NCBI RefSeq assembly: GCF_019039035.1
Contig: NZ_JAHNZT010000008.1
Span: 1-64,000 of the forward strand
Reading direction: 5' to 3'
Length of the DNA: 64,000 nucleotides
DNA from: Citreicoccus inhibens
Lineage (GTDB): Bacteria; Myxococcota; Myxococcia; Myxococcales; Myxococcaceae
Shown: piece by piece, positions 46,307-64,000 of the stretch
How the letters are laid out: every line of letters starts with the position of its first letter
How positions within the stretch are numbered: the first letter of the stretch is position 1
Translations under genes and position numbers: made by a program
The notes under the pieces: generated by a model
What the model was told of the DNA's origin: nothing
The model's database searches: none
The model's input: only the letters and a program-made list of their open reading frames with translations

Positions 46307-47194
46307 CTACTCGATATGAACGTCCGCCGCGTCCCGGAGCCGGGCCCGCAGCGAATCGAAAACCTTGCGCTGACGCACTGGCGCCAGCCGCCCCTCGACC
46401 TCTCCCCGCACCTCTTCGAACGGCGGAATCCGCCCCTCTCGCCGCTCGATGAGCTGGAGCACCGCGAACCCCTCCGCGGTCTCCACCACCGGTGACACCT
46501 GGCTCACGTCACGCAGCGCGAACGCGGCGTCCTCCAGGCGTCGGTCCTTCAACTCGCCTCGCGCGAACAGGCCCAGGTCCCCCCCCAGCGCCCGCTCTGG
46601 CCCATCCCCGCTGCTTTGAATCCGCGCCAGCGTTTCCCCCGCCTTGAAGCGACGGACGAAGCCCTCCGCGCGGGCCCGCGCCTTCGCGCGCTCCGCGGCA
46701 CTGCTTCCTTCCGGCACCGCCGCCAGCACTCGCCCCACATGCACGCGCTCCGGCTGCGCGTAGTCCTGTCGGTTCGCCGAGTAGGCGCTCCGCAGCTCCG
46801 TCTCGGTGGGGGCCGGAGCCGTCCGCTCCTCATCCGCCAGCAAGGCCTGGACCACGAGACGCTCTTCCAACTCCCGCACCTGCCGGGCGATGTCCTCACG
46901 CTGCCCGATGCCTCGCCGCTTCGCCTCGTCCACCAGCAGTCGTTTGTCGACCAGGGATTGCGCGAACTCGCGCCGGCCGGCCGGATTCTCGAACTGGGTG
47001 CGGAGCGCGGGCGGCAGCCGCAATGCCTCGCGCTGAAACTCCTCGCGCGTGATGACGCCGCCCTTGAAACGGGCCGCGACGGCCACCGAGGAAGACGCAG
47101 TCTGTGCCGGAGACGAGGCAGCCGACGGCGGCTGGCAGCCCGCCAGTACCAACCACGCCACCCATCCCCACCCCGCCTTGTTGGCCTGACGCAA
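46307..47194 (-). CDS. Parvulin-like lipoprotein foldase, degenerate active site
   Basis: First gene of the giant-protein operon, ending 41 bp before the 9,679-residue gene. I prefer the TTG at 47194: it follows GAGGA and gives a compact lipoprotein signal (MRQANKAGWGWVAWLVLAGC). Upstream in-frame starts at 47254 (ATG) or 47260 (TTG) would add 20-22 residues of AT-richer sequence before the hydrophobic core. A SurA-type N-terminal helical part (FARE-like EEFQREALRLPPALRTQFEN) precedes a PpiC-like domain (VHVGRVLAAV, ALGGDLGLFARGEL, SPVVETAEGFAVLQL). The conserved His of the first motif (normally A-H-I-L) is replaced (VGRVL), and the last motif lacks its His, so it may act only as a chaperone. 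Likely partner: the giant protein encoded next. Confidence 0.85.
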   Translation of the reverse strand: MRQANKAGWGWVAWLVLAGCQPPSAASSPAQTASSSVAVAARFKGGVITREEFQREALRLPPALRTQFENPAGRREFAQSLVDKRLLVDEAKRRGIGQREDIARQVRELEERLVVQALLADEERTAPAPTETELRSAYSANRQDYAQPERVHVGRVLAAVPEGSSAAERAKARARAEGFVRRFKAGETLARIQSSGDGPERALGGDLGLFARGELKDRRLEDAAFALRDVSQVSPVVETAEGFAVLQLIERREGRIPPFEEVRGEVEGRLAPVRQRKVFDSLRARLRDAADVHIE

Positions 47195-47375
47195 AATGTC
47201 CTCGAATCGCAAAGCAGCTGGACGCCGCGCAGTCTGCGCGATCTGCCAATTCATTTTCAATGCCCTACCCCATGCACGTTTGAGTGATGTCGGCCCGCTT
47301 TGGTACGGTGCCGGCGGCCACGTTTCCCCGTCGAGGGTCCGCCCTGTTCGGAATTACCATTAGGATTTGCAATTC
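47195..47375. promoter_or_regulatory. Divergent intergenic region between two foldase lipoprotein genes
   Basis: About 180 bp of locally AT-richer sequence separates the start of the 46 kb minus-strand operon from the plus-strand foldase gene, so it must hold both promoters. I see no convincing -35/-10 pair or strong palindrome. The minus-strand start may extend to 47260. Confidence 0.5.
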
Positions 47376-48338
47376 ATGAACATCCTGAAGATAGCCGCAG
47401 CGTCAGCCACAGCCCTGTTTCTCCTCGGTGCATGCAAGGGTTCGGGTAGCGGAGCGGCCAGCGAGGCGAAAGGCGCCGTGGTTGCTCGCGTGGGCGAGGG
47501 AACCATCACGGCCCAGCAGATCGAGGCGAAGCTGGAATCCCAGCCCCCCCTTATCCGCTCGCGCTTCGCCACGCTCGAGGCGAAAAAAGAATTCCTAGAC
47601 AACATGGTGCGCTTCGAACTGCTCCTCCAGGAAGCGCGGCGTCAGGGATTGGAGCAGGACCCCGAGGTGAAGGGCACGCTGGAGAAGCTGCTGGTGCAGC
47701 GGCTCATCCAACGGCAAGCGGAGCAGGCGGAGGCCCGGCCGCTCACCGAAGAGGAATTGAACAAGTATTACCAGGATCATTTGTCCGAGTTCGTACAGCC
47801 AGCCAAGGTACGCGTGTTGCAGATCTTCCTGGCGTCGGCCGCGAACGATTCCAAGCACGCGGCGGTGAAGGCCGAGGCAGAGGCGCTCTACGCGGACATC
47901 CGCAAGAAGGAGTCCGGCCCGGCGAAGATAGCCTTCTCCGAACAGGTGAAGGCCCGCTCCGATGACGCGGTGTCGAAGGCGGCCTCGGGAGACCTGGGCA
48001 CGCTGACCCACGAGCAGCTCTCCGCCCGTTGGGGGAAGGCCGTGGCGGACGCGGCCTTCGGCCTCCAGGCCATGCATGACCTGGCGCTGGTGGAGTCCGA
48101 GCGCGGCATGCACGTGCTCAAGCTCATGGTGCGCGAGCCCGCGCTCGAACTGACGATGGAGCAGGTCCGCCCGCGCATCGAGAGCCGCGTGCTCCTGGAG
48201 CGTCGCACCGGAGCGGTCGACACACTCGTCGCGTCGCTCAAGAACAAGACAACCATCCAGGTAGATGACGCCGCCCTGGGCGCGGTCCGGGTCCAGACGG
48301 ACGGCGTGGGCGCCGCGCGCCCCAGCCCGACGCCCTGA
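47376..48338 (+). CDS. Parvulin-like lipoprotein foldase (third of the locus)
   Basis: A 320-residue protein from ATG 47376, with AGGA 10 bp upstream. A TTG at 47367 is in frame but has no room for a ribosome site. The lipoprotein signal is MNILKIAAASATALFLLGAC. The N-terminal half (VARVGEGTITAQQIEAKLES...LDNMVRFELLLQEARRQGL) matches SurA/PrsA-type chaperone domains. The PpiC part is recognisable (VRVLQIFLAS, ASGDLGTLTHEQL, ERGMHVLKLMV) but the first active-site His is replaced (VLQIF). It is transcribed away from the giant-protein operon but shares its control region. The C-terminus ends in a short Pro-rich tail. It probably assists the same clients, with weak or no isomerase activity. Confidence 0.87.
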   Translation: MNILKIAAASATALFLLGACKGSGSGAASEAKGAVVARVGEGTITAQQIEAKLESQPPLIRSRFATLEAKKEFLDNMVRFELLLQEARRQGLEQDPEVKGTLEKLLVQRLIQRQAEQAEARPLTEEELNKYYQDHLSEFVQPAKVRVLQIFLASAANDSKHAAVKAEAEALYADIRKKESGPAKIAFSEQVKARSDDAVSKAASGDLGTLTHEQLSARWGKAVADAAFGLQAMHDLALVESERGMHVLKLMVREPALELTMEQVRPRIESRVLLERRTGAVDTLVASLKNKTTIQVDDAALGAVRVQTDGVGAARPSPTP

Positions 48339-48498: not shown

Positions 48499-49914
48499 AT
48501 GCGGATCGCTGTCATCGCCACGTACACGCACCCTACCCGGCTGCGCGTCAAGGAACCCTCCATCATGCAGTCCTCCGTCCCGGAGCTGATCGCGGGACTG
48601 TGTCCCGTGGACGCCGAGGTGGAGATCTTCAACGAGAAGGAGACGGACATCCCGTTGGATCGGGATTGGGATCTCGTCTTCTTCTCGTACCTGCACTCGT
48701 ACTACGAGCACACCAAGGTGCTCTCCACGCTGCTGCGCCAGCGCGGCATCAAGACGGTGGGCGGAGGGCGCCACGCCAGCTACTTCCCCGACGACGCCGA
48801 GCGGTACTTCGACGCGGTCATCACCGGCGAGCCCGAGTCCAACGTCCCCGCGCTCATCGCGGACTTCGAGCGGGGCGCGCTCCAGAAGCGCTACGCCTTG
48901 CCCTCGAAGGGCGCGGCGGCCATCCAGCCGTACCGCTACGAGCTCATCGACTTCACGCACAACAAGGTGCGCCTGCCGGGCATCGAGGCGTCACGCGGGT
49001 GCCCGTTCTCCTGCAATTTCTGCGTCCTCACCGGCAACGAGCGCTACCGCTTCCGCCCCATTCCCCAGGTCATCGACGAGATCCAGACGCGCATGCGCTG
49101 GAACCCGAACTACCTCGGGATGATGGAGGACGCGTTCGTCTTCCTGGACAACAACCTGGGCGGTTCCCCCAAGTACCTGCGGGAGCTGTGCGAGGCCCTC
49201 ATCCCGCTGAAGAAGACCTGGGGCTGCGCGCTGACCTTCAACGTCCTCAAGGACGAGTCGCTCGTGAGGCTGATGGCGAAGGCGGGCTGCCGGTACGTCT
49301 ACACGGGCCTGGAGTCGCTCAACCCGGACTCCATCAAGGCGATGAACAAGGGCCAGAACAAGCTGTCGGAGGTGGACGCCGTCATCCAGCGCGTCTTCTC
49401 CGCCGGCATCCTGTTGTCCTTCGGCCTCATCGTCGGCTCGGACGGCGACACCAACGACTACCTGCTCAAGCTGCCGCAGTACCTGGCGGACCTGCGCTAC
49501 TTCTCCATCACCTTCCTGGGCATTGTCTGCCCGTATCCCGAGACGCCCTTCTTCCGCGAGCTGCAGGCCGAGGGACGCCTGCTCCCGGGCACCATCAGCC
49601 GCGACTATGACGGCTACACGCTGTGCCACCGCCCCAAGCAGCTCCACCCCTCCGAGGTCATCGAGCACTTCCACCGCCTGTGCAGCGAACTGGGGAGCCT
49701 GCCCAACATCGCCAGGCACTACTGGTCCAAGCTCACGATGAGCGCCATGCCGCGCTACAAGACGACCATCCTCTTCTCCGGACCGGAGATCCTCAGCATC
49801 CGCAATCCGGTGAAGAACCCGGCGCGCCGCTACATCGCGGGCATGGATGCGCTGGAGGAGTGGGACGTGCGGCAGATGGCCGCGCTGGGCCTGGAGCCCC
49901 AGCGGCTTACCTGA
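48499..49914 (+). CDS. Radical SAM protein with B12-binding-like N-terminal domain
   Basis: I place the start at ATG 48499 (MRIAVIATYTHP, 471 aa) because the Rossmann-like domain begins immediately. The frame opens at ATG 48427, but that leader is not protein-like. Residues 1-130 resemble the cobalamin-binding fold of class B radical SAM enzymes (DLVFFSYLHSYY, VGGGRHASYF, AVITGEPESNVPAL) but lack the DxHxxG cobalt-ligand motif. The [4Fe-4S]/SAM motif is RGCPFSCNFC (Cys 168, 172, 175). The TIM-barrel signatures EDAFVFLDNNLGG and TGLESLNPDSIKAMNKGQN follow, and the C-terminal third continues to residue 471. The substrate is unknown. Its stop overlaps the convergent desaturase gene by 8 bp. Confidence 0.88.
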   Translation: MRIAVIATYTHPTRLRVKEPSIMQSSVPELIAGLCPVDAEVEIFNEKETDIPLDRDWDLVFFSYLHSYYEHTKVLSTLLRQRGIKTVGGGRHASYFPDDAERYFDAVITGEPESNVPALIADFERGALQKRYALPSKGAAAIQPYRYELIDFTHNKVRLPGIEASRGCPFSCNFCVLTGNERYRFRPIPQVIDEIQTRMRWNPNYLGMMEDAFVFLDNNLGGSPKYLRELCEALIPLKKTWGCALTFNVLKDESLVRLMAKAGCRYVYTGLESLNPDSIKAMNKGQNKLSEVDAVIQRVFSAGILLSFGLIVGSDGDTNDYLLKLPQYLADLRYFSITFLGIVCPYPETPFFRELQAEGRLLPGTISRDYDGYTLCHRPKQLHPSEVIEHFHRLCSELGSLPNIARHYWSKLTMSAMPRYKTTILFSGPEILSIRNPVKNPARRYIAGMDALEEWDVRQMAALGLEPQRLT

Positions 49915-50728
49915 GGTTCGGCGTGGGCAGGTGGACCTGCCGCGCCAACCCCACCGCGCGCAAGCAGCGGATGAACGTCCAGCCCACGTCCACCTGCCAC
50001 CAGACCCAACCGTGGCGGGCGGACGCGGGGAACGCGTGGTGGTTGTTGTGCCACCCCTCGCCCAGCGCGAGCACGCTCACCCACCAGACGTTGCGGCTGT
50101 GATCTCGCGTGTCGTGCACCCGCGTACCGAAAGCGCGCGCGTGGCACACCGAGTTCACCGCGTAGGTGCTCTGCATCCAAGACACCATGGGCAGGAAGAA
50201 GTACGCGGGCAGCGTGCGCCACCCGAGCGTCAAGCCCAGCACCAGCACCGCGATGACCTGGGGCCCCAGGCGGAAGCGCAGGAGCCAGTGGTAGTACCGG
50301 TCCCCCGCGAGGTCCTTGCACCACGTGCGCCACGCGTCGTCATCCGTGGACGCCTCATTGAGGATCCACCCCATGTGCGCGTACCAGAGTCCGCGCTCGG
50401 GCGAGTGCACGTCGCCCTCCGTGTCCGCCTTCGCGTGATGGATGCGATGCGTGGCGGCCCAGAGCAGCGGGCTGCCCTGCCCCGTCAGCATGGCCACCGT
50501 GACGAGGCCGTACTCCACCCACCGGGGACACTCGAAGGCGCGATGGCAGATGAGCCGGTGCAGGCCCACCGTCGTGCCCAGCCCCATGGCCACATAGAGC
50601 GTGAGCGCCACCGGCAGCGCATGGGGTGGCCAGGGCAGGACGAAGGCCGACGCCGCCAGGGCATGCACCACCAGCATGTACACGACGATGATGAGGCTGA
50701 CTCGGAAGCGCGGTGACTCAGCGGACAT
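49907..50728 (-). CDS. Acyl-lipid/acyl-CoA delta-9-type fatty acid desaturase
   Basis: A 273-residue integral membrane protein from ATG 50728. The frame is open much further upstream, but that extension overlaps the previous gene and is not desaturase-like. The three histidine boxes of the di-iron desaturases are complete: HRLICH (HxxxxH), HRIHH (HxxHH) and HNNHH (HxxHH). Hydrophobic spans lie at about 10-55, 145-170 and 180-200. It would introduce a cis double bond into acyl chains using O2 and an electron carrier. It is the last gene of an apparent operon, 50 bp after the cyclase/ATPase gene, so membrane fluidity may be linked to that regulator. The stop TAA (49907-49909) lies inside the convergent radical SAM gene. 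Confidence 0.93.
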   Translation of the reverse strand: MSAESPRFRVSLIIVVYMLVVHALAASAFVLPWPPHALPVALTLYVAMGLGTTVGLHRLICHRAFECPRWVEYGLVTVAMLTGQGSPLLWAATHRIHHAKADTEGDVHSPERGLWYAHMGWILNEASTDDDAWRTWCKDLAGDRYYHWLLRFRLGPQVIAVLVLGLTLGWRTLPAYFFLPMVSWMQSTYAVNSVCHARAFGTRVHDTRDHSRNVWWVSVLALGEGWHNNHHAFPASARHGWVWWQVDVGWTFIRCLRAVGLARQVHLPTPNLR

Positions 50729-50778
50729 GACGGAACTCGGAGGGTGGAACAAAGGGATGCGCCGCGCGAGGCGAGGGC

Positions 50779-53700
50779 TCAGGCCGAGGCACGCTCCGGA
50801 GCGGAGAGCGAGACCCCCGCGGCCGTGCCCGCCTCCAGGCGATCGATCCGTCGCAGCTCGGCGCGAGCGCCAATGTCCGTGAAGAGGGCGCGGGCCCGAG
50901 CCAGGAACGCCGCCCGGCGATGCGGCAGCGCCACCGCGGCATCGAAGTAGGCCACGCCCGTCTCCCACCGGTTGGGGCTGGCCTCCAGCACCGCGATGGC
51001 TTGAAGGAACACGGGTTCGGCGGCCGCCACACCCTTGCGCAGCCGCAGCGCCCGCGCGGTGACCCGCAGGGCCGGCCCCTTGAGATACGGATACAGCCGA
51101 GCGATGGCGCGCGCCTTGAAGCAGCTCCGGCGGACGACCCGCCACAGCTCCGCGCGGGGCACCACCGTGGCCCCTTCCTCCAGCGCGAAGAGAGCGGCCT
51201 CGGCCGCGTCCACCAAGCCCACCTGAAGGAAGGGCACCAGCACCTGATAGCTCCAGATGGTGCTGAAGGCGCGCACGGCCACCAGCGCCGCCTCCTCCAC
51301 CTGGTGCTCGCGCACCGTCACGTTGGCCAGGTGGTTGAGGCTGGCGCACTGGTTGGCCAGGTCATCCACCTCCACGCTGATGCGCAGCCCCTGCTCCAAC
51401 TCGGCGCACAGCTCCCCCACGTCGCCCTGGCCCAGCAGGTAGCGACACATGGGGCTCCAGGAGTGCGCCCAGCCCTGGTGCATCAGCGCATTGAGCTCTA
51501 CGCCAATGGTGCGCATCTGCTGGTAGAGCTGGTCGGCCGCCTCGAAGCGCGAGCAGAGGAACTCGCCTGTCGCCTGCATCATGAGGCACGTCTGGCGCTC
51601 CCAGCGCTCGCCCACCAGACGGAGCGTGGCCACGGCCTGCTCCTGGTAGTCCCGCGCGCGCCGCAGCTCGTTGCGGAAGAAAGCCTGGATGCCCAGGCGA
51701 CTGAGCGCGAGTCCCTCCGCCACGGGGTCCCTCGCGCGCCGCGCGTACTTCAAAGCCCGCTCGCAGTAGCGCAGCGAGCGCTTCACCTGTCCCGAGCCGA
51801 ACAGCAGCGACGCGAAGAAGCCACTGGCCAGGCTGACCGCGTAGTCGCTGCGCGAGCGCCGGGCCATGTTCACCGTCACCAGCGTGGCCCAGGTGAGCTT
51901 CTTGATGTCCGCGAAGTAGTAGATGCGGATGAGCGAGAAGAGCGTGGAGAGCTGCCGCAAGTACTGAGACAGCCGCGCCGAGGGCAGCGGTCGCAGCACC
52001 CAGGGCAGCACCATCGTCAGCGCCAGGAGCAGCAGGTTGCCCAGCGTGCGCACCCCCAGGGCCAACAGGTTGCCGGGCAGGCTGCGGCCCATCAGCACCA
52101 GGGACTTCTCCAGGTGCTGCGTGGCGCGGCTGGACTCGCCCTTCTCCTGGTGTGCTCGGCCCAGCCCCAGGTGGATCTCCGCCTGCCGCGCGACGAGCTG
52201 CTCGTCCGCGAGGCACTGCTCGAACATCAGGATGGCGCCCGCGTAGTTGCCCGCCTGGAGCAGCGTCTCGGCCAGCTCCTGCATGACGGTGCGCGTCTGC
52301 CGCAGCACCTCGTCAGGATCCATTCCCTCGACGGTGCCGAGCAACTCGAGCGCACGGTTGTAGTGGTGCAGGGCGTCGTCGTTGGCGTACTGCGCCCGCG
52401 CGCCGCGCGCCGCCATCAACGTGTACTCCAGGCCCTTGAGCGGATCATTCCCGGCCAGGAAGTGGTAGGCCAGGATTCCGGCGGACTGGAAGGGATTGTC
52501 CCCCGCGCGCGCTTCCAGGTAGCGGGCCAGACGCCGGTGCAGATCCTCGCGCCCCGACACGAGCAGCGTGTTGTAGGCCACGTCCCGGATGACGATGTGC
52601 TTGAAGATGCAGGTGAACGGCTCCTCCATCTCCAGGAGGATGAGGCCCAGCTTCGTGAGCGTGTCGATGGCCTCGCGGATCCGCGAGGCCCCCACGGACT
52701 CCGGCGCGAGCGCCGCCACCGCGTCCAGCGTGAAGATGCGGCCAATCACCGAGGCCACCTTCACCACCAACTGCTCCGTCTCGCTCAGCAGGTCGATGCG
52801 CGCGAGCACCACGTCCTGGATGGAGTCCGGCAGCGTCAGCCCTTGAAGGCTGCGCTTCAGCTCCATGCGCTCCTCGCCCAACCCCACCGGCCCCACGTAG
52901 CCCTGCTCCACCAGTCCCTGGACGATGGACTCGGTGAAGAACGGGTTGCCCTGCACCTTGGCCAGCAGCAGTTCCTCCAGCCCGGTGTCCGGCGGCGTCA
53001 TGCGCAGGTGCAGGCGCAAGAGCTCCCGGGTCTCGTCATCGTCCAGGCTGGACAGCTCCAGCGTGCGCAACCCGGTGAGCCCTTGGAAGCCTCGGAGCTG
53101 CTCACCGCCCGGCCGGAGCGTGACGAGCAGCGTGATGCGCAGCTCGGACAGCCGCGCGGCCACGTGCTCCAGCAGGTCGATGGAGATGTTGTCCGCCCAG
53201 TGCAGGTCCTCGAAGAAGAGGAGCAACGGCTGCACGCGGCTGAGCCTCTCCAGCAACAGGAAGATGATCTGGAACACACGCAGCTGCTTGCTGCGCGCAT
53301 CCAGGTTGCGCGTGACGGCGGCCTCCTCCACCGGCAGGCCCAGGATGCCCGCCATCACGGGCAACCACTCGTCCTCCACGCCCTCCAACCCCTCCAGGCC
53401 CTGGCGCAGGCGCGCGAGCTGCGTCTCCAGATCGTTCGCCTCGTGGAGTCCGAACGCCTGGATCAACACCTCCTTCCACGGGAAGAAGGGCGTGAACATC
53501 TCGTACGAGTAGCAGATGCCGTACAGCGAGCGGGCGCCCCGGTCCTCGGCGTCCTCGACCACGCGCGCGCCCAACCGGGACTTGCCGATGCCCGCCTCAC
53601 CGGACACCACGCACAGCCGGCCCGCGCCGTCCAACGACTCCTCCACGGCCTGCCGCAGCACGTCCTGCTCGCGGTGCCGTCCGACGATGCTCCCGCGGCC

Positions 53701-55056
53701 CTTGATGAACAGGCTGCGGCGAATCTCCGACTGGAGGCGATAGACGGGCACCGGGCGCGCCACGCCCTTCAGCTGGGCGGCGCCCACGAACTCCGAGATG
53801 AAGCCGCCCTGGTGGAGCCGCCCCTCGGTGTGGGCGTCCACGTGGATTCCGCTGCCTCGCCCGTGCGTCATGAGGCGGGCGGCCATGTTCACCACCTCGC
53901 CCAGCGCCGAGTACCCCTTGCGCCAGGGCGAGCCCATGTCCCCGCAGTAGGCGTGGCCCGTGGCGATGCCGATCTGCAGCTCCTGCACGAACGGGAAGGC
54001 GTCCTTCTCACGCTGGAGCTTGCACGCCAGGCGGCACGCCAAGACCTCCTTGTTCGGCAGCGCGGTGGGCGCGCCGAAGAGGACGTAGAGCACGTTGCCC
54101 TTGTCCGTGAAGTCCGTCATCAGGAGCACGCCGCCGTGGTGCGCGCTCTCCCTCTGCACGAACTCGTAGAAGGCGTTGAGTTCCTCGGTGAAGGCCTCTG
54201 CCTCGGAGGGGCCCCGCGCGCTGGTGAAGCGCAGGAAGAAGCAGGTGACGTCGCGGAAGTCTCCCGAGAACTGCTGGTGCGCCGTGGTGATCTTCGTGAA
54301 GAGGACCGGGTTCAGCAGCAGCGCGCACCGCCCCACCAGCTCCAGGCCGCCGGGCGTGGGCCGCGCCTCCACTGTGCGCGCCTCCAGGGCCGCGGCGGGG
54401 TCCAAGCGGAAGCAACCGTCGTCGCGCACCTCGCCCCGGCGCGCGGACTCGGGCACGAGCGCCCAAGCCTGGGCGCTGAGGATGACCTCGCCCACCGCGG
54501 CGCGCTTCTCCGCGAGGACGGCCTGCGCGAGCGGCTCGCCGATGAGCGCCGGGTGCATCCACAGGCCCGTGGAGCCCATCACGATGCGGTGCGATTCACC
54601 GAACCCCACGCCGATGCGTGACGACACGCCGAAGCGCTGGCCCAGGAGCTCGATTTGCGCGAAGCGCGCCAGTCGCCGCTGAACCTGGAGCGCGCACACC
54701 GCCGCGCGCTGCACCACGAGCGCGTCGCCCTCGTCCGGGAGCGGCTCGAAGCAGGTGAGGATGGAGTCGCCCGCGAACTGGTAGATGTCCCCGCCGTGCT
54801 GGCGCACGACGCCAATCATCTCCGTGTAGTAGCTGGTGAGCAGGCGCTGGAGCGCGTCGATTCCGCGAGGCCCCGCGCCGCTCAGTCCCACCACGATGGG
54901 CGTGAAGCCCGCGATGTCCAGCAGGAGGATGGCTCCGCGCACCGGCTCCACCGGCGGCAGGGTGTACGCCTCCGCGTCCGCCAGTCGCGCGAGGACGGCG
55001 GCTGGGATGTACGGCACCAGCGACGCGACGACGGGGTCTGTGCTCTCCGGGAGCAT
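50779..55056 (-). CDS. Soluble-adenylyl-cyclase-like protein: two cyclase domains, AAA-type ATPase, TPR
   Basis: I prefer ATG 55056 (1,425 aa), with GAGGAAG upstream; the open frame to 55128 would overlap the preceding gene. Cyclase domain 1 (about 35-180) keeps the two metal Asp (LLLDIAGFT, D47; GGDIYQFAGD, D97) but lacks the Asn-Arg transition-state pair. Cyclase domain 2 (about 255-400) lacks the metal Asp but has the purine-contacting Lys (TDKGNVLYVLFG, near 317) and GEVVNMAARLM (near 389). Together they would form one composite site, as in mammalian soluble adenylyl cyclase. A signalling ATPase follows (VSGEAGIGKSRL Walker A, near 490; LLLFFEDLHWAD Walker B, near 615), then a long TPR-like helical half. 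The likely product is cAMP, though bicarbonate or calcium control is only an analogy. It lies between a membrane-protein gene and a desaturase gene. Confidence 0.9.
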   Translation of the reverse strand: MLPESTDPVVASLVPYIPAAVLARLADAEAYTLPPVEPVRGAILLLDIAGFTPIVVGLSGAGPRGIDALQRLLTSYYTEMIGVVRQHGGDIYQFAGDSILTCFEPLPDEGDALVVQRAAVCALQVQRRLARFAQIELLGQRFGVSSRIGVGFGESHRIVMGSTGLWMHPALIGEPLAQAVLAEKRAAVGEVILSAQAWALVPESARRGEVRDDGCFRLDPAAALEARTVEARPTPGGLELVGRCALLLNPVLFTKITTAHQQFSGDFRDVTCFFLRFTSARGPSEAEAFTEELNAFYEFVQRESAHHGGVLLMTDFTDKGNVLYVLFGAPTALPNKEVLACRLACKLQREKDAFPFVQELQIGIATGHAYCGDMGSPWRKGYSALGEVVNMAARLMTHGRGSGIHVDAHTEGRLHQGGFISEFVGAAQLKGVARPVPVYRLQSEIRRSLFIKGRGSIVGRHREQDVLRQAVEESLDGAGRLCVVSGEAGIGKSRLGARVVEDAEDRGARSLYGICYSYEMFTPFFPWKEVLIQAFGLHEANDLETQLARLRQGLEGLEGVEDEWLPVMAGILGLPVEEAAVTRNLDARSKQLRVFQIIFLLLERLSRVQPLLLFFEDLHWADNISIDLLEHVAARLSELRITLLVTLRPGGEQLRGFQGLTGLRTLELSSLDDDETRELLRLHLRMTPPDTGLEELLLAKVQGNPFFTESIVQGLVEQGYVGPVGLGEERMELKRSLQGLTLPDSIQDVVLARIDLLSETEQLVVKVASVIGRIFTLDAVAALAPESVGASRIREAIDTLTKLGLILLEMEEPFTCIFKHIVIRDVAYNTLLVSGREDLHRRLARYLEARAGDNPFQSAGILAYHFLAGNDPLKGLEYTLMAARGARAQYANDDALHHYNRALELLGTVEGMDPDEVLRQTRTVMQELAETLLQAGNYAGAILMFEQCLADEQLVARQAEIHLGLGRAHQEKGESSRATQHLEKSLVLMGRSLPGNLLALGVRTLGNLLLLALTMVLPWVLRPLPSARLSQYLRQLSTLFSLIRIYYFADIKKLTWATLVTVNMARRSRSDYAVSLASGFFASLLFGSGQVKRSLRYCERALKYARRARDPVAEGLALSRLGIQAFFRNELRRARDYQEQAVATLRLVGERWERQTCLMMQATGEFLCSRFEAADQLYQQMRTIGVELNALMHQGWAHSWSPMCRYLLGQGDVGELCAELEQGLRISVEVDDLANQCASLNHLANVTVREHQVEEAALVAVRAFSTIWSYQVLVPFLQVGLVDAAEAALFALEEGATVVPRAELWRVVRRSCFKARAIARLYPYLKGPALRVTARALRLRKGVAAAEPVFLQAIAVLEASPNRWETGVAYFDAAVALPHRRAAFLARARALFTDIGARAELRRIDRLEAGTAAGVSLSAPERASA

Positions 55057-55075: not shown

Positions 55076-55477
55076 TCAGGCCAGGGTGGAGAAGCGGAGC
55101 CAGAACGCGATGACACAGACCGCGCCATACAGCGGAATCTCGGCCGTCTCCGCCCACGGTTGCGCGCGGCGCAGCGCGCCCCAGACGTGGACCCCCACCA
55201 TCAATCCTCCCACCAGGCCGATGAGTTCGAAGATGGCCCGGTGGCTCTTGGGGTCCGGGACGAACTGCACCACCGTGATGATGACCGCCAGGGCCACGCC
55301 GCCCAGGCATCGGCCGAAGTACACCGTCAGGTCGTTGTTCCCCGTGGGCAGCTCCCAACCGAACCACTTCGCCCATCGCATGGGGATGAGCAGCAGCGGC
55401 AGCGCGTAGACGAACAGGAAGAACGACGTGGAGACGACGAGGAACCAGCTGGCCAGGGGATACTGGGCATTGATCAT
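55076..55477 (-). CDS. Four-span membrane protein of unknown function (133 aa)
   Basis: From ATG 55477 the product begins MINAQYPLASWFLVV. It has four hydrophobic segments at about residues 8-32, 52-72, 82-102 and 113-130, joined by short charged loops (RWAKWFGWELPTGNN; DPKSHR; RRAQPWAETAE). I recognise no family; small four-helix proteins of this kind are often annotated as hypothetical membrane proteins. It is the first gene of the operon and ends 19 bp before the cyclase start, so it could anchor or sense for the cyclase, but that is only positional inference. The ribosome-binding site is weak. Confidence 0.75.
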   Translation of the reverse strand: MINAQYPLASWFLVVSTSFFLFVYALPLLLIPMRWAKWFGWELPTGNNDLTVYFGRCLGGVALAVIITVVQFVPDPKSHRAIFELIGLVGGLMVGVHVWGALRRAQPWAETAEIPLYGAVCVIAFWLRFSTLA

Positions 55478-55657: not shown

Positions 55658-56197
55658 TCAGCCCACCTCGCGGGTGGCGGCGAGGAGGAACTCGGTGACG
55701 CGCTCCAGCGAGACGGTGCGCTCCAGTTCCGGGGGGAAGTGGCGGAACGCCTCGGGGGGGCCGTGGAGGATGATGGGCTTGCCGTAGCGCAGGGCCAGGG
55801 CGCTCTCGGAGGCGGTCCCCTCACCGCCGGGCAGGCCCACCAGGGCATGGGGGGTGAGGACGTTGATGTGATTGCGGCTCATGGGTTCGGTGCCGTGCTC
55901 ACCGCTGAGCGGCAGGTGCGTGTAGATGGGCAGCTCGATGGCCCGATGGGGGTAGCCCTTCCGGGGCTCGTAGCGCCCTCCCCCCGCGATGCCCCCAGGG
56001 ACGATGCCAATGGAGATGCCTCGGCGCCCTCGCACTTGAACGAAGGCCTCGGCCGCCGCGCCCATGACCCCGCCACCCGCTCCCGTGAGCAGGTCGAATC
56101 CGGACTCGGCGATCCATCTCGCCAGGGGCACGACCACCGGCACATGCGCCTCCTTTCCCGAGCCGAAGACCCCGATGATGCGGCGTTCACTGCGCAT
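55658..56197 (-). CDS. LOG-family (SLOG/Rossmann) nucleotide-binding protein
   Basis: A 179-residue protein from ATG 56197 with GGAGG 8-10 bp upstream. It has a Rossmann-like start (RRIIGVFGSGKE), LLTGAGGGVMGAAAEAF, and the family signature LPGGEGTASESALALRYGKP. That corresponds to the PGGxGTxxE motif of cytokinin-activating LOG phosphoribohydrolases and the related TIGR00725/MoCo-carrier group. The length is typical. The likely activity is hydrolysis or binding of a nucleotide or nucleotide derivative, but LOG-type N-glycosidase activity cannot be separated from the non-enzymatic carrier group here. It lies about 180 bp upstream of the membrane/cyclase operon on the same strand. Between them (55478-55657) I see only a weak hairpin near 55632-55660. 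Confidence 0.83.
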   Translation of the reverse strand: MRSERRIIGVFGSGKEAHVPVVVPLARWIAESGFDLLTGAGGGVMGAAAEAFVQVRGRRGISIGIVPGGIAGGGRYEPRKGYPHRAIELPIYTHLPLSGEHGTEPMSRNHINVLTPHALVGLPGGEGTASESALALRYGKPIILHGPPEAFRHFPPELERTVSLERVTEFLLAATREVG

Positions 56198-58188: not shown

Positions 58189-58229
58189 CCCTCCGTTCCG
58201 AGCAAGCCCGCGAGGTTATGCGCACCGGG

Positions 58230-58247
58230 GTGGATGTTTTCGTCCAC
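58230..58247. promoter_or_regulatory. Enhancer-type palindrome, copy 2 (GTGGA-N8-TCCAC)
   Basis: GTGGATGTTTTCGTCCAC matches copy 1 at GTGGA-G--TTC-TCCAC, with the two differing arm positions exchanged symmetrically (C/T and A/G). It is centred about 108 bp upstream of the predicted transcription start, a usual enhancer position. Confidence 0.7.
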
Positions 58248-58320
58248 CGCGCCGTCGCGCAGCGCTCCGCGAGACGTAGCAAGTGCGCGCAATCCCGTGG
58301 ATCCGCCACGACATCACGCG

Positions 58321-58336
58321 TGGCCCGGCAGTTGCT
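58321..58336 (+). promoter_or_regulatory. Sigma-54 (-24/-12) promoter of the eCIS operon
   Basis: TGGCCCGGCAGTTGCT matches TGGCACG-N4-TTGCW at all but one consensus position (C for A) and keeps the invariant GG-N10-GC spacing. Transcription would begin near 58347, leaving a leader of about 69 nt before the GTG at 58416. It lies downstream of two palindromes and next to a sigma-54 activator gene on the same strand. Confidence 0.78.
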
Positions 58337-58415
58337 GTGGAGGAGCCAACGCTCGGCACGAACTCCAGGGAGGGTTCGGAGCCTGGATGGCGCGGACGCA
58401 CGGGGGACACAACGG

Positions 58416-59006
58416 GTGGCGACGTACGCGGCAATCGCATCGGTGGGGCAGGCCATCCTGGCGCTGCTCGAGCAATCGTGCCCGAAGCCAGAGTTCGAGG
58501 GCGCGAAGTTCGAGCTGTATCAGGCGGGCGACTTCAAGACGCCCATGGACGAGGGCATCTCCCTCTTCCTGTATCGCGTCGCGCCCAGCACCGTTCGCCG
58601 CAACCTGTCCGGACGGGAGGACGCACTCGGCCGCCGCGCGAGACGGCCGCTTCCGCTGGACCTCTGTTACCTCCTGACGCCGTGGGCGAAGTCCGCCGCG
58701 AAGCAGCACCGGCTGCTCGCCTGGAGCATGCGGACGCTGGAGGACACCCCCACGCTCACCGCCGGCTTCCTCAACCACCACGGCCGGCCCGAGCCCGACA
58801 CCTTCCTCCCGGACGAGACGGTGACGCTCGTGCAGGACACGCTCTCCATCCAAGACATGCTCAACGTCTGGGAGGTGGGCAAGCCCAACATCCAGGTGTC
58901 CGCGACGTACATCGCGCGCATGGTGTTGATTGAGTCCGCCATCTCCGACACGCAGGGCCCGCCCGCGCAGACGCGCGCCTTCGGCCTGGGGAGGACCGAG
59001 GGATGA
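58416..59006 (+). CDS. eCIS cap/terminator protein, Pvc16 (DUF4255) family
   Basis: A 196-residue protein from GTG 58416 (VATYAAIASVGQAILALLEQ), with GGGGGA about 9 bp upstream. The predicted promoter at 58321 excludes the longer reading. The family pattern is clear: an N-terminal helix with VG--I---L, then F--Y-------P---GISLFLYRVAPSTVRRN, PLPLDLCYLLTPWA, a helix with WSMRTLEDTP, and ETVTLVQDTLSIQDMLNVWE. DUF4255/Pvc16-type proteins cap the tube and sheath of PVC/Afp-like extracellular contractile injection systems. As the first gene of the operon its stop overlaps the next start (ATGA), indicating coupled translation. Confidence 0.88.
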   Translation: MATYAAIASVGQAILALLEQSCPKPEFEGAKFELYQAGDFKTPMDEGISLFLYRVAPSTVRRNLSGREDALGRRARRPLPLDLCYLLTPWAKSAAKQHRLLAWSMRTLEDTPTLTAGFLNHHGRPEPDTFLPDETVTLVQDTLSIQDMLNVWEVGKPNIQVSATYIARMVLIESAISDTQGPPAQTRAFGLGRTEG

Positions 59007-59902
59007 GGCCCGCCCCGCGCGTGCTGGAGACGCTGTCGCGCGTGGCGCCCTTGGGCGTGCGCTTCCGCGACGAGTTGATGGGAACACTCGTGGGCGACGG
59101 GCTCGACGTGAGCGCGTACCCGGAAGGGCAGCCTCACCTGCGCCGCCGGGCGAGCGTCAGTCGCTCGGGAGTGCACGTCCTGTCGGATCTGCCTGGGCTT
59201 CGCTCCTTCGAAATCGGCGGCGCGGAGATGGGGGACGCCGCGTGGTGGGCCCAGCTCCCGCCGCGCCAGCCCTTCACCGTCGAGGTGGAGGATTCGCTGG
59301 GACGCTTCCTGCCGTGTTCGTTCCGCGCGGAGCTGCCTTTCCGTGGCCTGTTCGAGTTGGACGAAGCCCCACCGCCGGGCTCGCCACCCACTCTGGCGAG
59401 GCCGCCGTCCGTGCCGCTGTTCTCCGCGCCCGCGCGCGTCACCGGCACACCGCTGGCCGTGCTCCGCGCGGAGCTCTGGGACACGCACGCCCGAGCGCCC
59501 GCGGCCTGGGCGCGCGTGGAGGTCACTCCCGAGGGAGGCCCGGTCGCGCGCGGGGTGACGGACGCGCAGGGCCGGCTCGCCCTCTTCTTTCAGTACCCCG
59601 CGCCCGTGGACCTGCCCCCGGGCTCGTTCGCGGATGCGTCGACGCTGCCCTCAGGTCCACCCTTGCTCGAACAATCGTGGGCGCTGGCGGTGCGAATCCA
59701 CTACGCGCGGCGCTCGCCCGTGCCCGCGCGGCCTGACCTGCGCGTCACCCTGTCCCAACCATCCTCGTGGGTCTGGCCGGATGCGGGCACCTCGCTCGAG
59801 TTGCTCGAGCCCACGCTGCGATACGGCCAGGAGCTCGTCCTGAAGACCCAGGGCGCACCGCGTTCCCGGCTGTGGATCACGCCCACGGGTTCACCTCCCT
59901 AG
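59003..59902 (+). CDS. Conserved eCIS-associated protein with carboxypeptidase-regulatory-like part
   Basis: A 299-residue protein from ATG 59003, overlapping the cap gene by 4 bp. It has an N-terminal segment (VLETLSRVAPLGVRFRDELMG), then LSDLPGLRSFEIGGAEMGDA and FTVEVEDSLGRFLPCSFRAELP. A middle beta-sandwich (LRAELWDTHARAPAAWARVEV, ARGVTDAQGRLALFFQYP) looks like a carboxypeptidase-regulatory/transthyretin-type fold. There is no signal peptide. Proteins of this type often accompany Pvc16 homologues in myxobacterial and cyanobacterial contractile-system clusters. Its role in assembly is unknown to me. Position between cap and sheath suggests a structural or assembly factor. Confidence 0.75.
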   Translation: MRPAPRVLETLSRVAPLGVRFRDELMGTLVGDGLDVSAYPEGQPHLRRRASVSRSGVHVLSDLPGLRSFEIGGAEMGDAAWWAQLPPRQPFTVEVEDSLGRFLPCSFRAELPFRGLFELDEAPPPGSPPTLARPPSVPLFSAPARVTGTPLAVLRAELWDTHARAPAAWARVEVTPEGGPVARGVTDAQGRLALFFQYPAPVDLPPGSFADASTLPSGPPLLEQSWALAVRIHYARRSPVPARPDLRVTLSQPSSWVWPDAGTSLELLEPTLRYGQELVLKTQGAPRSRLWITPTGSPP

Positions 59903-59911
59903 GAAAGACCG

Positions 59912-61873
59912 ATGCCCGAATATCTTGCTCCCGGCGTATTCGTCGAAGAGACCTCGTTCCGTGCCAAGTCCATCGAGGGCGTGAGCACGACCACCACTGG
60001 CTTCGTGGGTCCTGCGCGCTACGGGCCCGTGGACCTGGAGCCGGACCTCATCACCAGCGTGGTGGAGTTCGAGCGCGTCTATGGCAACCGCCGCCAGCTC
60101 GACTTCAAGAAGGCCGGCACGCTCCACAACTACACATGGCACGCCGTGCGCGCCTTCTTCGAGGAAGGAGGCAAGCGACTGTACGTGGGCCGCCTGTTCC
60201 GCCAGCTCGATGACACGACGTACAGCGGCATCGACGCGACCATCGACATCACCACGGGCTCCGTCCAGAGCGCCTACAACGACGGGCACGCGAGAGCGCT
60301 GCTGGAGCCCGCCGCGACGAACAAGAAGAAGACGCTGCTGCTCACCGCGCGCTATCCAGGCTCGGCGGGCAACCTGCGCGTGCGCTTCTCGTTGCGACTG
60401 GGCCAGAACGTCCTGTCCTTCGAGGGCAGCACGCCCAAGGTGGGCGCGCTCCTGGAGAAGGACGTGGTGTTGCTGCGCGACACCCAGTCGCCGCTGGCCA
60501 GCCCCGTGGGCGCCGGAGAGTTCTATCTGGCGACCTGGAGCGAGGACGTCCAGGACTGGGTCTTCACCGGAGGCCCCGGCTCGCCCATCGCCCTGTCCAG
60601 TCTGACCAAGGACGAGGGCTACGAGCTGCGCGTCCTCACCCTGGCGGTGACGGTCATCCCCACGGATGAGCCCGCGGCCTCGCAGGTCTGGGACGGCCTG
60701 GCCCTGGACCCCACGCACGCGCGCAATGGCTCGGCGGATTCGCTCACCGACCGATTCCTCCTGGATGCCACCCAGCCCGCGAAGAACCGCGATGTGCCGG
60801 TCATCATCGACACGCAGCAACTCAAGACGGGCCTGGAGGTCCTCCAGGCGTTCCTCGACGCGAGCCTCGCCAGCCCGGTCATGAGCCCCGCGCTGGAGCT
60901 GGCGCTGGACAATCCTGATTCTCCAGAGTCCCAGCGCTCTCTGGAGGTGCTGCTCAAGGGCGGCGTGGATGGAGAGCGCCCCCAGGGCGATGACTACCTG
61001 GGCCGGCAGATCCCCAACACCACGCGCAAGACGGGCCTCGTGCAGTTCGAGGACTTGGAGGACATCTCCATCGTCGCCGCGCCGGGCTCCACCTTCGGCT
61101 ACGAGAACGGCTACGGCACGCACGCGGCCACGGTGCTCAACGCGCTCATCAGCCATTGCCAGCGGATGAAGTACCGCATCGCGGTACTCGACAGCGGCAA
61201 TGGACAGACGCTGGGGCAGGTGCGCGCCCAGCGCGCGAAGATCGACTCCAGCTACGGAGCGCTCTATTACCCGTGGGTGAAGGTGCTGGACCCGGTGACG
61301 CGCCAGCCCATCTTCCTGCCACCGAGCGGCTTCGTGGCGGGCATCTACGCGCGCAACGACGTCAACCGCGCCGTGTACAAGGCCCCCGCCAACGAGGTGG
61401 TGAACCTGGCGCTCGGCTTCGAGTCCAACCTGAGCAAGTCCCAGCAGGAGGTTCTCAACCCCGAGGGTATCAACGCCTTCCGCTACTTCGAGGGGCGCGG
61501 CTACCGGCTCTGGGGCGCGCGCACGGTGAGCTCGGATCCCGAGTGGAAGTACGTGAACCTGCGCCGATACTTCGCCTACCTGGAGCGGTCCATCGACAAG
61601 GGGACGCAGTGGGCGGTGTTCGAGCCCAATGGCGATCAACTCTGGGCGAGCGTGCGGCGCACCATCGAGGACTTCCTGCTCAATGAATGGCAGACGGGCG
61701 CGCTGCTCGGAGACAAGCCGGACAAGGCGTACTTCGTGAAGTGCGACCGCAGCACCATGACCCAGAACGACCTGGATAACGGTCGGCTGGTCTGCCTCAT
61801 CGGCGTGGCGCCGCTGCGTCCGGCCGAATTCGTCATCTTCCGCATCGGGCAGTGGACCGGAGACCGGAAGTAA
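59912..61873 (+). CDS. Contractile tail sheath protein (Pvc2/phage-sheath family)
   Basis: A 653-residue protein from ATG 59912 (AGGA 9-12 bp upstream). The N-terminus MPEYLAPGVFVEE is the diagnostic start of phage and eCIS sheath proteins, followed by STTTTGFVGPARYGPVD and VRAFFEEGGKRLYVGRL. The C-terminal domain has IVAAPG, YYPWVKVLDP, LPPSGFVAGIYARNDVNRAV and KAPANE, then INAFRYFEGRGYRLWGARTV and the closing VKCDRSTMTQNDLDNGRLVC...GVAPLRPAEFVIFRIGQW. This length is within the range of sheath proteins with an inserted middle domain. It forms the contracting outer cylinder around the tube encoded next. Confidence 0.95.
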   Translation: MPEYLAPGVFVEETSFRAKSIEGVSTTTTGFVGPARYGPVDLEPDLITSVVEFERVYGNRRQLDFKKAGTLHNYTWHAVRAFFEEGGKRLYVGRLFRQLDDTTYSGIDATIDITTGSVQSAYNDGHARALLEPAATNKKKTLLLTARYPGSAGNLRVRFSLRLGQNVLSFEGSTPKVGALLEKDVVLLRDTQSPLASPVGAGEFYLATWSEDVQDWVFTGGPGSPIALSSLTKDEGYELRVLTLAVTVIPTDEPAASQVWDGLALDPTHARNGSADSLTDRFLLDATQPAKNRDVPVIIDTQQLKTGLEVLQAFLDASLASPVMSPALELALDNPDSPESQRSLEVLLKGGVDGERPQGDDYLGRQIPNTTRKTGLVQFEDLEDISIVAAPGSTFGYENGYGTHAATVLNALISHCQRMKYRIAVLDSGNGQTLGQVRAQRAKIDSSYGALYYPWVKVLDPVTRQPIFLPPSGFVAGIYARNDVNRAVYKAPANEVVNLALGFESNLSKSQQEVLNPEGINAFRYFEGRGYRLWGARTVSSDPEWKYVNLRRYFAYLERSIDKGTQWAVFEPNGDQLWASVRRTIEDFLLNEWQTGALLGDKPDKAYFVKCDRSTMTQNDLDNGRLVCLIGVAPLRPAEFVIFRIGQWTGDRK

Positions 61874-61890
61874 CCCGGGAGGATTGAGCA

Positions 61891-62343
61891 ATGGCTGTCC
61901 AACGAGAGCGCCCTTATGTGCAGTTCAACTTCCTGGTCGACCTGGGAACCGGCAGTACGGATGGAGCGGATGCCGGGTTCCAGGAAATCAGCAACGTGGG
62001 CATGGAAGTCACCGTGGCGGAGTACCGCAACGGCAACGAGAAGGAGAACAGCGTCCGGAAGATCACCGGCCTGAACAAGGCGACGGACGTCACCATGAAG
62101 CGCGGGGTGATTGGCTCGCTCAGCCTGTATCGCTGGCTGGATCAACTGCGAAACGGCGATCCCAACGCGCTGCGCACCGTCACCATCCAACTCCAGAACG
62201 AGGACCACACCGCGGTGGTGCAGACGTGGAAGCTCTTGCGTGCGCGCATCGTCAAGCACTTGAGCGGCCCCTTCAACGCGAAGGGCACGGACGTGGCGAT
62301 GGAAGAGCTGACCCTCGCGTACGAGCGCCTGGAGATGGAGTGA
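61891..62343 (+). CDS. Contractile system inner tube protein (Pvc1/gp19 family)
   Basis: A 150-residue protein from ATG 61891 with a strong GGAGG site, 17 bp after the sheath gene. Typical tube motifs are YVQFNFLVDLG near the start, AGFQEISNVGMEVTVAEYRNGNEKEN, KATDVTMKRGVIGS--LYRWLDQLRNG and a closing AMEELTLAYERLEME. Tube proteins of this size stack as hexamers inside the sheath. Order sheath then tube with short spacing is standard for eCIS and phage tails. Confidence 0.95.
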   Translation: MAVQRERPYVQFNFLVDLGTGSTDGADAGFQEISNVGMEVTVAEYRNGNEKENSVRKITGLNKATDVTMKRGVIGSLSLYRWLDQLRNGDPNALRTVTIQLQNEDHTAVVQTWKLLRARIVKHLSGPFNAKGTDVAMEELTLAYERLEME

Positions 62344-62344
62344 C

Positions 62345-64000
62345 GTGAGTCGCCCGGCCGCCAGACGCCTTCCCGGCATCCGCTTCGAGGTGCAAGCGCC
62401 TCCCGTCGAGGAGGCGCTGCCCCGCATGGACGTGGCGGCCTTCGTGGGCTTCGCCGCGTCCGGGCCGCTCCACGTGCCCGTGGCCGTGGAGGACCCGGCC
62501 GACTTCGAGGCCGTGTTCGGAGGGGCCCCCACGCTGGCGAGGGACCCGGTGACTGGCGAGGTGGTGATGGCCCACCTCGCCTCGGCGGTCCGGGCCTTCT
62601 TCCGCAATGGAGGCCGGCGGTGCTGGGTGGTGCGCGTGGCCGGGGACGGAGCGAAGTCCAACACCTTCCCCGTCCCTGGGCTGGTGCGCTGCTCCGAGTC
62701 CGGCAAGGTGACCGCGGCCGTGGCGCACGCGCGCTCCGAGGGGAGCTGGTCCGACGACGTGCGCGTGGCCACCAGCCTCACTCGCGAGCTGCTCGAGCTG
62801 GGCACGTGGTCCGCCGTGGGGACGGACGTCGTGCTGGAGGTGACGGTCCCCGGAGGTGTCGCACCCGGAGATCTGCTCCGCCTCACCTTCGGCGACGGTT
62901 CGCTGGCGCTGCTCGTCCCCGTCGATGCCGCCGAGTCGGTGGACGCGACCCAGACCCTGCCCATGCCCGGCCTTGCTCCGCGCCGGGTGACGCTGCGGGT
63001 GCGCAGCCCCCGCGCGCGCTGGCTCCAGACAGGAGTGGGCCTGGGTGCCCTGCCCCTCTTCGCGCAGTGGACGCGCGGAGACGGCCAGGTCGTGACGATT
63101 CCCGTGCTCCAGGTGGATGACCCAGGCGCGGCCTCGGACCGTCGAACCCTGACGCTCACCCTGGACACGTCGGCCGAGCTGGCGCCCGAGCCTGGAGCGG
63201 TGCTGCGAGTGGTCGCCGCGGGCACGGGTGAGCACTGGCTGACGGTGGAGTCACGGGTGCTGGGCCAGGGCACTGGCGTGGTTCAGGTGACGGGCGTGGC
63301 ATCGCGCGCGCTGACCGCTCCGCCCCTGGATGTCTCGTCCACGCCTGTGTTCTGCGAGCGCCTGACGCTGAGCCTGTGGACGCGGCGTGGCGACGAGCAG
63401 CCAGCGCGCCTGGACCTGCTCGGACTGTGTCCCGCGCATCCTCGGCACTGGGGGTCTCTGCCCACCGATGTCCGCCGAGCCTGGGACGAGGAGCCCGAGT
63501 CACTCCCAGGGCGACTCCCCGAGGTACGGCTGCCGGGCGACTGGCGACAGGGCATCCCTGTGTCTCGCTTTCCCCTCGCGGGTCCTGGGCCGGAGGGCGA
63601 GGCCTTCTCGTTCCCACTGGGGATGACGGACGTGCCGGGCGGGTGGCTCGGGTGCGTGCCGCCCCCGAGCGAGGCCTTGGTCCGCGATGGGCTGAATGAC
63701 TTCGGCTCGGAGCTGTTCCTGGACCGCGACCTGCGCGACCTGGGCACGGACACGCTGATGGCCCAGGCCGCGTTCCTGCGGTACCAGGCCAGCCAGCCAC
63801 GTGCCCCGCGGGGCATCCATTCCCTGCTGTGGCGCGCGGACGTCACGCTCGTCGCCGTGCCCGACCTGGTGCATCGGCCCTGGGTGCGCGAGCCCGTGGC
63901 CACCTACCCGCCCGCGCAGGCCGGGGACACGCCGCCACAGCCCGCCTGGGGCACCTTCCTCGACTGCGCGCGCATGGCCCCTCCCGCGCCCACGGCCCTG
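62345..64000 (+). CDS. Second sheath-like protein of the eCIS operon, truncated by window end
   Basis: The frame opens at GTG 62345, two bases after the tube stop, and is open to the end (552 codons seen). The N-terminus after a short leader (RMDVAAFVGFAASGPLHVPVAVEDPADFEAVFGG) and LASAVRAFFRNGGRRCWVVRVAG match the first domain of long Pvc3/4-type sheath paralogues. A large inserted beta-rich region follows (SWSDDVRVATSLTRELLELG and so on). The conserved segment LNDFGSELFLDRDLRDLGTD, RYQASQPRAPRGIHSLLW and VTLVAVPDLVHRPW is visible before the sequence ends. The C-terminal sheath domain would lie beyond the window. It probably builds specialised sheath rings near the baseplate. Confidence 0.85.
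   Translation, partial: MSRPAARRLPGIRFEVQAPPVEEALPRMDVAAFVGFAASGPLHVPVAVEDPADFEAVFGGAPTLARDPVTGEVVMAHLASAVRAFFRNGGRRCWVVRVAGDGAKSNTFPVPGLVRCSESGKVTAAVAHARSEGSWSDDVRVATSLTRELLELGTWSAVGTDVVLEVTVPGGVAPGDLLRLTFGDGSLALLVPVDAAESVDATQTLPMPGLAPRRVTLRVRSPRARWLQTGVGLGALPLFAQWTRGDGQVVTIPVLQVDDPGAASDRRTLTLTLDTSAELAPEPGAVLRVVAAGTGEHWLTVESRVLGQGTGVVQVTGVASRALTAPPLDVSSTPVFCERLTLSLWTRRGDEQPARLDLLGLCPAHPRHWGSLPTDVRRAWDEEPESLPGRLPEVRLPGDWRQGIPVSRFPLAGPGPEGEAFSFPLGMTDVPGGWLGCVPPPSEALVRDGLNDFGSELFLDRDLRDLGTDTLMAQAAFLRYQASQPRAPRGIHSLLWRADVTLVAVPDLVHRPWVREPVATYPPAQAGDTPPQPAWGTFLDCARMAPPAPTAL

Follow-up and report, generated by a model that had tools for sequence, protein, structure and literature searches.

The C-terminal half of human soluble adenylyl cyclase (sAC, ADCY10) is ATPase- and tetratricopeptide repeat (TPR)-like, and Roelofs and Van Haastert reportedly proposed in 2002 that sAC has bacterial orthologs. 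Among the closest described systems is LA_4008 of Leptospira interrogans, in which two tandem cyclase domains are combined with an AAA-ATPase and TPRs; MXAN_4545, COCOR_04748, and STAUR_4866 were named as its orthologs (PMC3789758, 2013). According to the relevant sections of the same paper, leptospiral culture supernatant raised cyclic AMP (cAMP) in THP-1 cells and a specific antibody abolished the effect; a single sentence of a later paper restates this finding (PMC5100919). Here we analyze a protein encoded in a 64,000-nucleotide stretch of the Citreicoccus inhibens genome (assembly GCF_019039035.1, contig NZ_JAHNZT010000008.1, positions 1 to 64,000), referred to below as the window. This protein, the window cyclase, has two cyclase domains (C1 and C2), the AAA-ATPase, and TPRs in the same order as the LA_4008/MXAN_4545 group:

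50779..55056, minus strand: tandem cyclase-ATPase-TPR protein, 1425 amino acids (aa); open frame, Pfam and NCBIfam matches, ADCY10 homology, and a ratio of nonsynonymous to synonymous substitution rates (dN/dS) of 0.059 against the same-genus copy
54442..54951, minus strand: C1 cyclase domain, aa 36-205, the metal-binding half; phmmer match to human sAC C1 and AlphaFold2 model
53722..54270, minus strand: C2 cyclase domain, aa 263-445; Pfam Guanylate_cyc and phmmer match to human sAC C2
53137..53688, minus strand: AAA_16 ATPase domain, aa 457-640 (Pfam E 8.5e-20), with Walker A at aa 486-493 and a Walker B-like stretch from aa 611
50842..52380, minus strand: TPR region, about aa 893-1405; Pfam TPR models

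The architecture itself has thus been described before, for the orthologous group of PMC3789758. Because M. xanthus AM003 has a single match covering the tandem model, the ortholog of the window cyclase, MXAN_4545 is probably this gene; the name MXAN_4545 also occurs in PMC4902038. The host-cAMP-raising factor is reported for the leptospiral protein only, and the sections of PMC3789758 that concern this group give no residue analysis. No study of the myxobacterial enzyme is among the literature matches listed, passages of PMC1183210 contain nothing about the family, and three features described below, the loss of the purine Lys, the replacement of both bicarbonate residues in this lineage, and a four-span partner gene, were not found in the searched literature.

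Sequence comparison and the predicted model together identify the window cyclase as a genuine sAC-type tandem class III cyclase. In a phmmer search of PDB sequences, human ADCY10 ranks first (E 7.4e-18), and both cyclase domains are collinear with it (residues 36-204 with 36-200, and 263-441 with 285-462). The AlphaFold2 model of aa 1-460, built from 34 of 35 aligned sequences (the window and 34 loci, with L048 excluded), has a mean pLDDT of 88.4 and a pTM of 0.88. Human sAC accounts for each of its first 24 Foldseek matches in the PDB (best E 1.3e-31, TM about 0.8), and VIA-align superimposes it on human sAC 4clk with Z 43.5 and a root-mean-square deviation of 2.3 over 424 residues, the second-best structural group being AC9 (Z 34.5). 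In sequence and in the predicted model, the two collinear domains form one heterodimer-like unit, as expected of the sAC type. An earlier reading of the window, made from its sequence only, had likened the order cyclase-cyclase-ATPase-TPR to that of sAC, and this is borne out, the homology being supported by phmmer, the tandem model, and the tree described below.

Conservation was assessed in a close set of 31 sequences including the window, of which L062 is a fragment from the C-terminal side and L058 has an incomplete C2; the residue counts are therefore given over the 30 sequences covering a position, several of which are near-copies or come from the same species and do not form 30 independent samples. 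Walker A is present in 30 of the 31, the exception being the fragment L062, and the Walker B-like pattern likewise in 30 of 31. We take the ATPase domain to be STAND-like. The Pfam Guanylate_cyc match spans aa 277-435 in C2 (E 3.7e-10), and Pfam reports nothing in C1 at 1e-3. The frame appears to be constrained: in one same-genus pair (98% identical), which allows only rough values, dN/dS is 0.059 for the whole cyclase, 0.034 for C1, and 0.098 for C2, with 0.045 and 0.051 for the neighboring four-span and desaturase genes. An alternative upstream ATG at 55128 falls within the four-span gene, and ortholog frames have an ATG near the equivalent of the window ATG at 55056, though the script sought the nearest ATG and the support is weak. 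A candidate membrane segment near aa 999-1020 (hydropathy 1.79) was dropped, as the strongest peak lies elsewhere in many homologs.

The cyclase-ATPase part also matches TIGR03903, a TOMM kinase/cyclase fusion family (aa 257-914, E 3.4e-68), but the score of 230.6 bits is far from the cut-off of 705.75, and Pfam detects no kinase domain in the window cyclase. The ATPase/TPR half occurs with other heads as well, a kinase and one cyclase in L060 and a kinase with no cyclase in L063 (heads read by eye).

The roles of catalytic residues in human sAC were taken from a table in PMC12867704 and from passages of PMC12250328, and the human stretches of the phmmer alignment were added to a multiple alignment of tandem proteins. 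The latter contains 47 rows, namely the window, Myxococcota loci, and one Leptospira and one Rhizobium plasmid homolog; the close set was at first represented by just the window and six loci (L010, L014, L016, L039, L053, and L056), and three too-short fragments and four loci duplicating genes already included were left out. The following positions map to the catalytic residues:

54916..54918, minus strand: D47, first metal Asp (human D47), in 30/30 close sequences, the window included
54766..54768, minus strand: D97, second metal Asp (human D99), in 30/30
54616..54618, minus strand: R147, pyrophosphate-receptor position (human K144), Arg in 30/30
53875..53889, minus strand: N390 to R394 (human N412 and R416), both unchanged in 30/30

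The metal aspartates of C1 and the Asn-Arg pair of C2 (motif VNMAAR) had been singled out in the sequence-only reading, and both assignments hold. All four residues are retained in 43 of the 47 tandem rows. At the mirror site, the window cyclase lacks Asp both at N321 and in the C2 strand (FFLRF), and A177 and L181 of C1 occupy the places of Asn and Arg; among the close sequences, Asn never occurs at position 177, and two of 30 have Arg at position 181. Since the mirror site has neither metal Asp nor Asn/Arg, the protein is predicted to have one composite site of the sAC type, with the metal Asp pair in C1 and Asn plus Arg in C2, an arrangement seen in every covering close sequence.

The positions that recognize the base are different:

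54118..54120, minus strand: M313, purine-Lys position (human K334), Met in 30/30 close sequences, gap-free alignment
54097..54108, minus strand: TDKG, aa 317-320, C2 beta2/beta3 loop (human FDKG); phmmer and multiple alignment, the loop being named in the relevant part of PMC12867704
53908..53910, minus strand: S383, adenine-Thr position (human T405), Ser in 26 and Trp in 4 of 30

The Lys of TDKG had been proposed as the purine-specifying residue. However, the human stretch GQINK(334)VFMFDKG(341) and the window stretch GVLLM(313)TDFTDK(319)G(320) have equal spacing and align without gaps both in phmmer and in the multiple alignment; therefore the purine position is M313, and K319 lies in the beta2/beta3 loop and is ruled out. 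The alignment to ADCY10, which had been suggested as a check, thus places D47, D97, N390, and R394 at catalytic positions and the TDKG Lys elsewhere. The window cyclase and its close relatives have neither the purine-specifying Lys nor, at the second base position, the Thr of sAC or the Asp of other class III adenylyl cyclases. In the part of PMC4215837 dealing with class III enzymes, Lys and Asp are typical of adenylyl cyclases and Glu with a variable residue of guanylyl cyclases; as aligned, the Met/Ser and Met/Trp pairs match neither pattern. Trp at position 383 occurs in L014, L015, L016, and L053, the last from Hyalangium.

Over the 47 tandem rows, the pairs at the two base positions are K/T in 13, Q/A in 8, Q/V in 7, M/S in 5, M/W in 5, Q/T in 2, and seven others once each. 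The myxobacterial tandems L017-L022 and L116/L117 keep the tandem and, in the aligned rows, the two Asp, the Asn, and the Arg, and the alignment of L017-L022 to the window cyclase extends into the ATPase (query to 906-949), whereas the purine position is Gln or Lys, not Met.

A cyclase for a non-adenine base, with cGMP or a pyrimidine nucleotide as its product, could account for Met/Ser or Met/Trp in place of Lys with Asp or Thr, and Ser is among the second-position residues of guanylyl cyclases (PMC4215837, in part). The same source gives Glu at the first position of guanylyl cyclases, where the window cyclase has Met. Matches of the tandem to the PycC (Pycsar cyclase) models are generic (best E 4.3e-11): three control relatives do equally well or better on the same model, a K/T relative scoring slightly better on the best one, and these matches are accordingly uninformative. 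We consider a non-adenine product unlikely. Equally doubtful is a pseudo-cyclase in which ATP bound by the tandem would regulate the ATPase/TPR half and would not be cyclized. The loss of the purine Lys agrees with it, as does a match of the tandem model to 6yii (Z 25.5), identified by its title only as a class III-like ATP-binding protein of P. aeruginosa; against it, the invariance of the metal Asp, Asn, and Arg residues in the close set is beyond what binding alone would lead one to expect.

The two residues of the bicarbonate site are replaced as well:

54778..54780, minus strand: Q93, bicarbonate-Lys position (human K95), Gln in 30/30 close sequences
54517..54519, minus strand: V180, bicarbonate-switch position (human R176), Val in 30/30

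Bicarbonate activation, inferred earlier from the likeness to sAC, finds no support as far as the sAC mechanism is concerned. K95 and R176 occur together in none of the 47 tandem rows, five of which have Lys at the K95 position alone and four His/Arg. Two metazoan sACs missing one of the two residues are reported in PMC12867704, as far as the part used here goes, not to be controlled by bicarbonate. Activation by this mechanism is thus not expected, and from its residues the window cyclase is predicted not to be gated by bicarbonate as human sAC is. A bicarbonate-activated adenylyl cyclase working like the mammalian enzyme, although it would share the predicted fold and composite site through common descent of the tandem, is on these grounds highly improbable.

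The history of the tandem was addressed with a tree of 78 domains (39 C1 and 39 C2) from Myxococcota, one Leptospira homolog, and human sAC only. Eight bacterial proteins were excluded, six as near-copies (judged by eye) and L128 and L129 as having lost catalytic residues; the Rhizobium row was also left out. The C1 and C2 domains are split with support of 100/99, and each human half falls on its own side. In the approximately unbiased (AU) test, human C1 and C2 as sisters are rejected (p 6e-5), as is a clade of window-type C1 plus C2 (p 0.006). Therefore the tandem seems older than the split of the lineages, within a narrow sampling in which the human branches are long, and the tandems of the window cyclase and human sAC look like the result of shared ancestry. 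Human sAC is drawn nearer to L018, L021, L116, and other myxobacterial tandem types (human C2 99/94, human C1 87/87); this placement is not claimed, since the alternative of grouping it with window-type tandems has AU p values of 0.13 and 0.18 and is not rejected. Overall, the window cyclase shares with human ADCY10 the fold over 424 residues, the composite site (human D47, D99, N412, and R416), and the pairing of each half with its counterpart in the tree, and differs from it in the absence of the purine Lys, the adenine Thr, and the K95/R176 bicarbonate site.

A nearly full-length homolog (34% identity over window residues 4-1405) is encoded by plasmid lbp2 of Leptospira borgpetersenii (L094, 7986-12179), next to GMC oxidoreductase and sphingomyelinase genes. 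It has Leu/Thr at the two base positions where the window cyclase has Met/Ser. Its presence on this plasmid suggests transfer between phyla.

The genes adjacent to the window cyclase include a conserved and a lineage-restricted neighbor:

55076..55477, minus strand: four-span membrane protein, 133 aa, with four hydrophobic peaks; directly upstream of the cyclase in 51/53 genomes, one of them fragmentary
49907..50728, minus strand: fatty acid desaturase, lineage-restricted neighbor (PF00487, E 4.1e-18)

The sequence-only reading had linked the cyclase with both genes in an operon. The link to the four-span gene is conserved. The gene ends 19 bases before the cyclase ATG, and a profile search of 96 genomes of the host's family, 53 of which carry a window-type cyclase (assigned by genus, the type being verified only on tandem-alignment rows), yielded matches in 51 genomes. 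All 51 are among the 53 carriers, and in each the four-span match lies immediately ahead of the cyclase match and on its strand, with 10-67 bases (median 25) between the two. None of the 43 genomes without the cyclase has a match, although for some of them the scoring covered only 44 first-look candidates and not all assemblies are complete; these include genomes of the family with the L017-L022 type and without the window type (L116/L117 genomes lie outside the search). The four-span gene is thus a conserved neighbor, and the linkage may partly reflect common inheritance within one family. The four-span protein of the window has no Pfam match; DUF1304 gives weak matches in 6 of 21 members (best E 0.013), the AlphaFold2 model is poor (pLDDT 69.7, pTM 0.59; best Foldseek E 2.2), and the protein is assigned to no family. 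In G149, a remnant of the gene (G149:C1:8336592-8336825, profile positions 1-41 and 97-132 only) immediately precedes a cyclase frame that is open.

The link to the desaturase does not hold generally. Its gene starts 50 bases past the cyclase stop, and among 29 related loci (the window and the fragment L062 excluded) a desaturase follows the cyclase directly on the same strand in 12, comprising the same-genus copy, Corallococcus, one metagenome-assembled genome, and one further genome. In Hyalangium (L053) it is found on the opposite strand, past a convergent radical SAM gene, and in 16 loci it was not found in the available flank, which is about 1.5 kb for five of them. Because a desaturase follows in 12 of the 29 loci and was not found in the flank of 16, the link is a lineage feature. 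A membrane-lipid regulator, with an operon coupling the cyclase to fatty acid desaturation, would fit the same-strand arrangement, the four-span gene upstream, and the lack of a terminator-like site in 50600-50900 (with only 0.1 expected by chance); with so restricted a distribution of the desaturase, it is a quite unlikely explanation. The promoter and terminator scans found nothing, with a chance expectation that was also near zero.

Taken as a whole, we estimate a probability of roughly 60% that the window cyclase is a signal-gated class III nucleotidyl cyclase of the sAC-type tandem lineage with one composite site. C1 would supply the two metal Asp and C2 the Asn and Arg of a single active site, the mirror site being dead. 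By analogy, the ATPase and TPR half is probably the sensor or switch that sets the packing of C1 and C2, and the four-span protein encoded just upstream probably tethers the cyclase or delivers the signal. The cyclase would produce a cyclic nucleotide, cAMP being the most likely, through relaxed or unusual recognition of the base, and this product could be read by some of the cyclic nucleotide-binding proteins of the genome, which has 24 matches to PF00027.

Several observations weigh against this reading. Met stands in for the canonical purine Lys, and the partner residue is Ser or Trp, of which Trp may not fit adenine. Gating by the ATPase/TPR half is argued by analogy. No four-span gene turned up in G134 or G148 and only fragments of one in G149, which shows that the cyclase can persist in its absence. 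A possible though less probable reading is that the window lineage gave up canonical adenine recognition and, controlled by a dedicated four-span partner, produces a non-cAMP cyclic nucleotide or acts as an ATP-gauging switch.

Further genes of the region were noted. A SLOG LDcluster4 gene (55658-56197, minus strand; PF18306, E 2.6e-23) lies upstream of the four-span gene, and 25 of 30 loci share such a same-strand upstream SLOG gene, the other five having only 2 to 533 upstream bases. L047, a record titled Comamonas sp. KCTC 72670, contains a locus of myxobacterial type (73% identity) that has four-span, SLOG, and radical SAM genes as neighbors; the record is probably mislabelled. Contractile injection system genes occupy 58218-64000 on the plus strand (Pvc16_N, E 2.5e-30; tail sheath PF04984, E 2.2e-20), and two divergent PPIC-type peptidyl-prolyl isomerase genes lie back to back at 46307-47260 (minus strand) and 47367-48338 (plus strand).

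For the myxobacterial enzyme, the conserved gene upstream is a concrete candidate for a membrane partner. The Met, Gln, and Lys types, which share one scaffold, form a clean test set for the choice of base by class III cyclases. These observations suggest that the two-domain core of mammalian sAC would descend from a tandem shared with bacteria, and that neither the bicarbonate site nor the adenine pocket is a fixed feature of this core.

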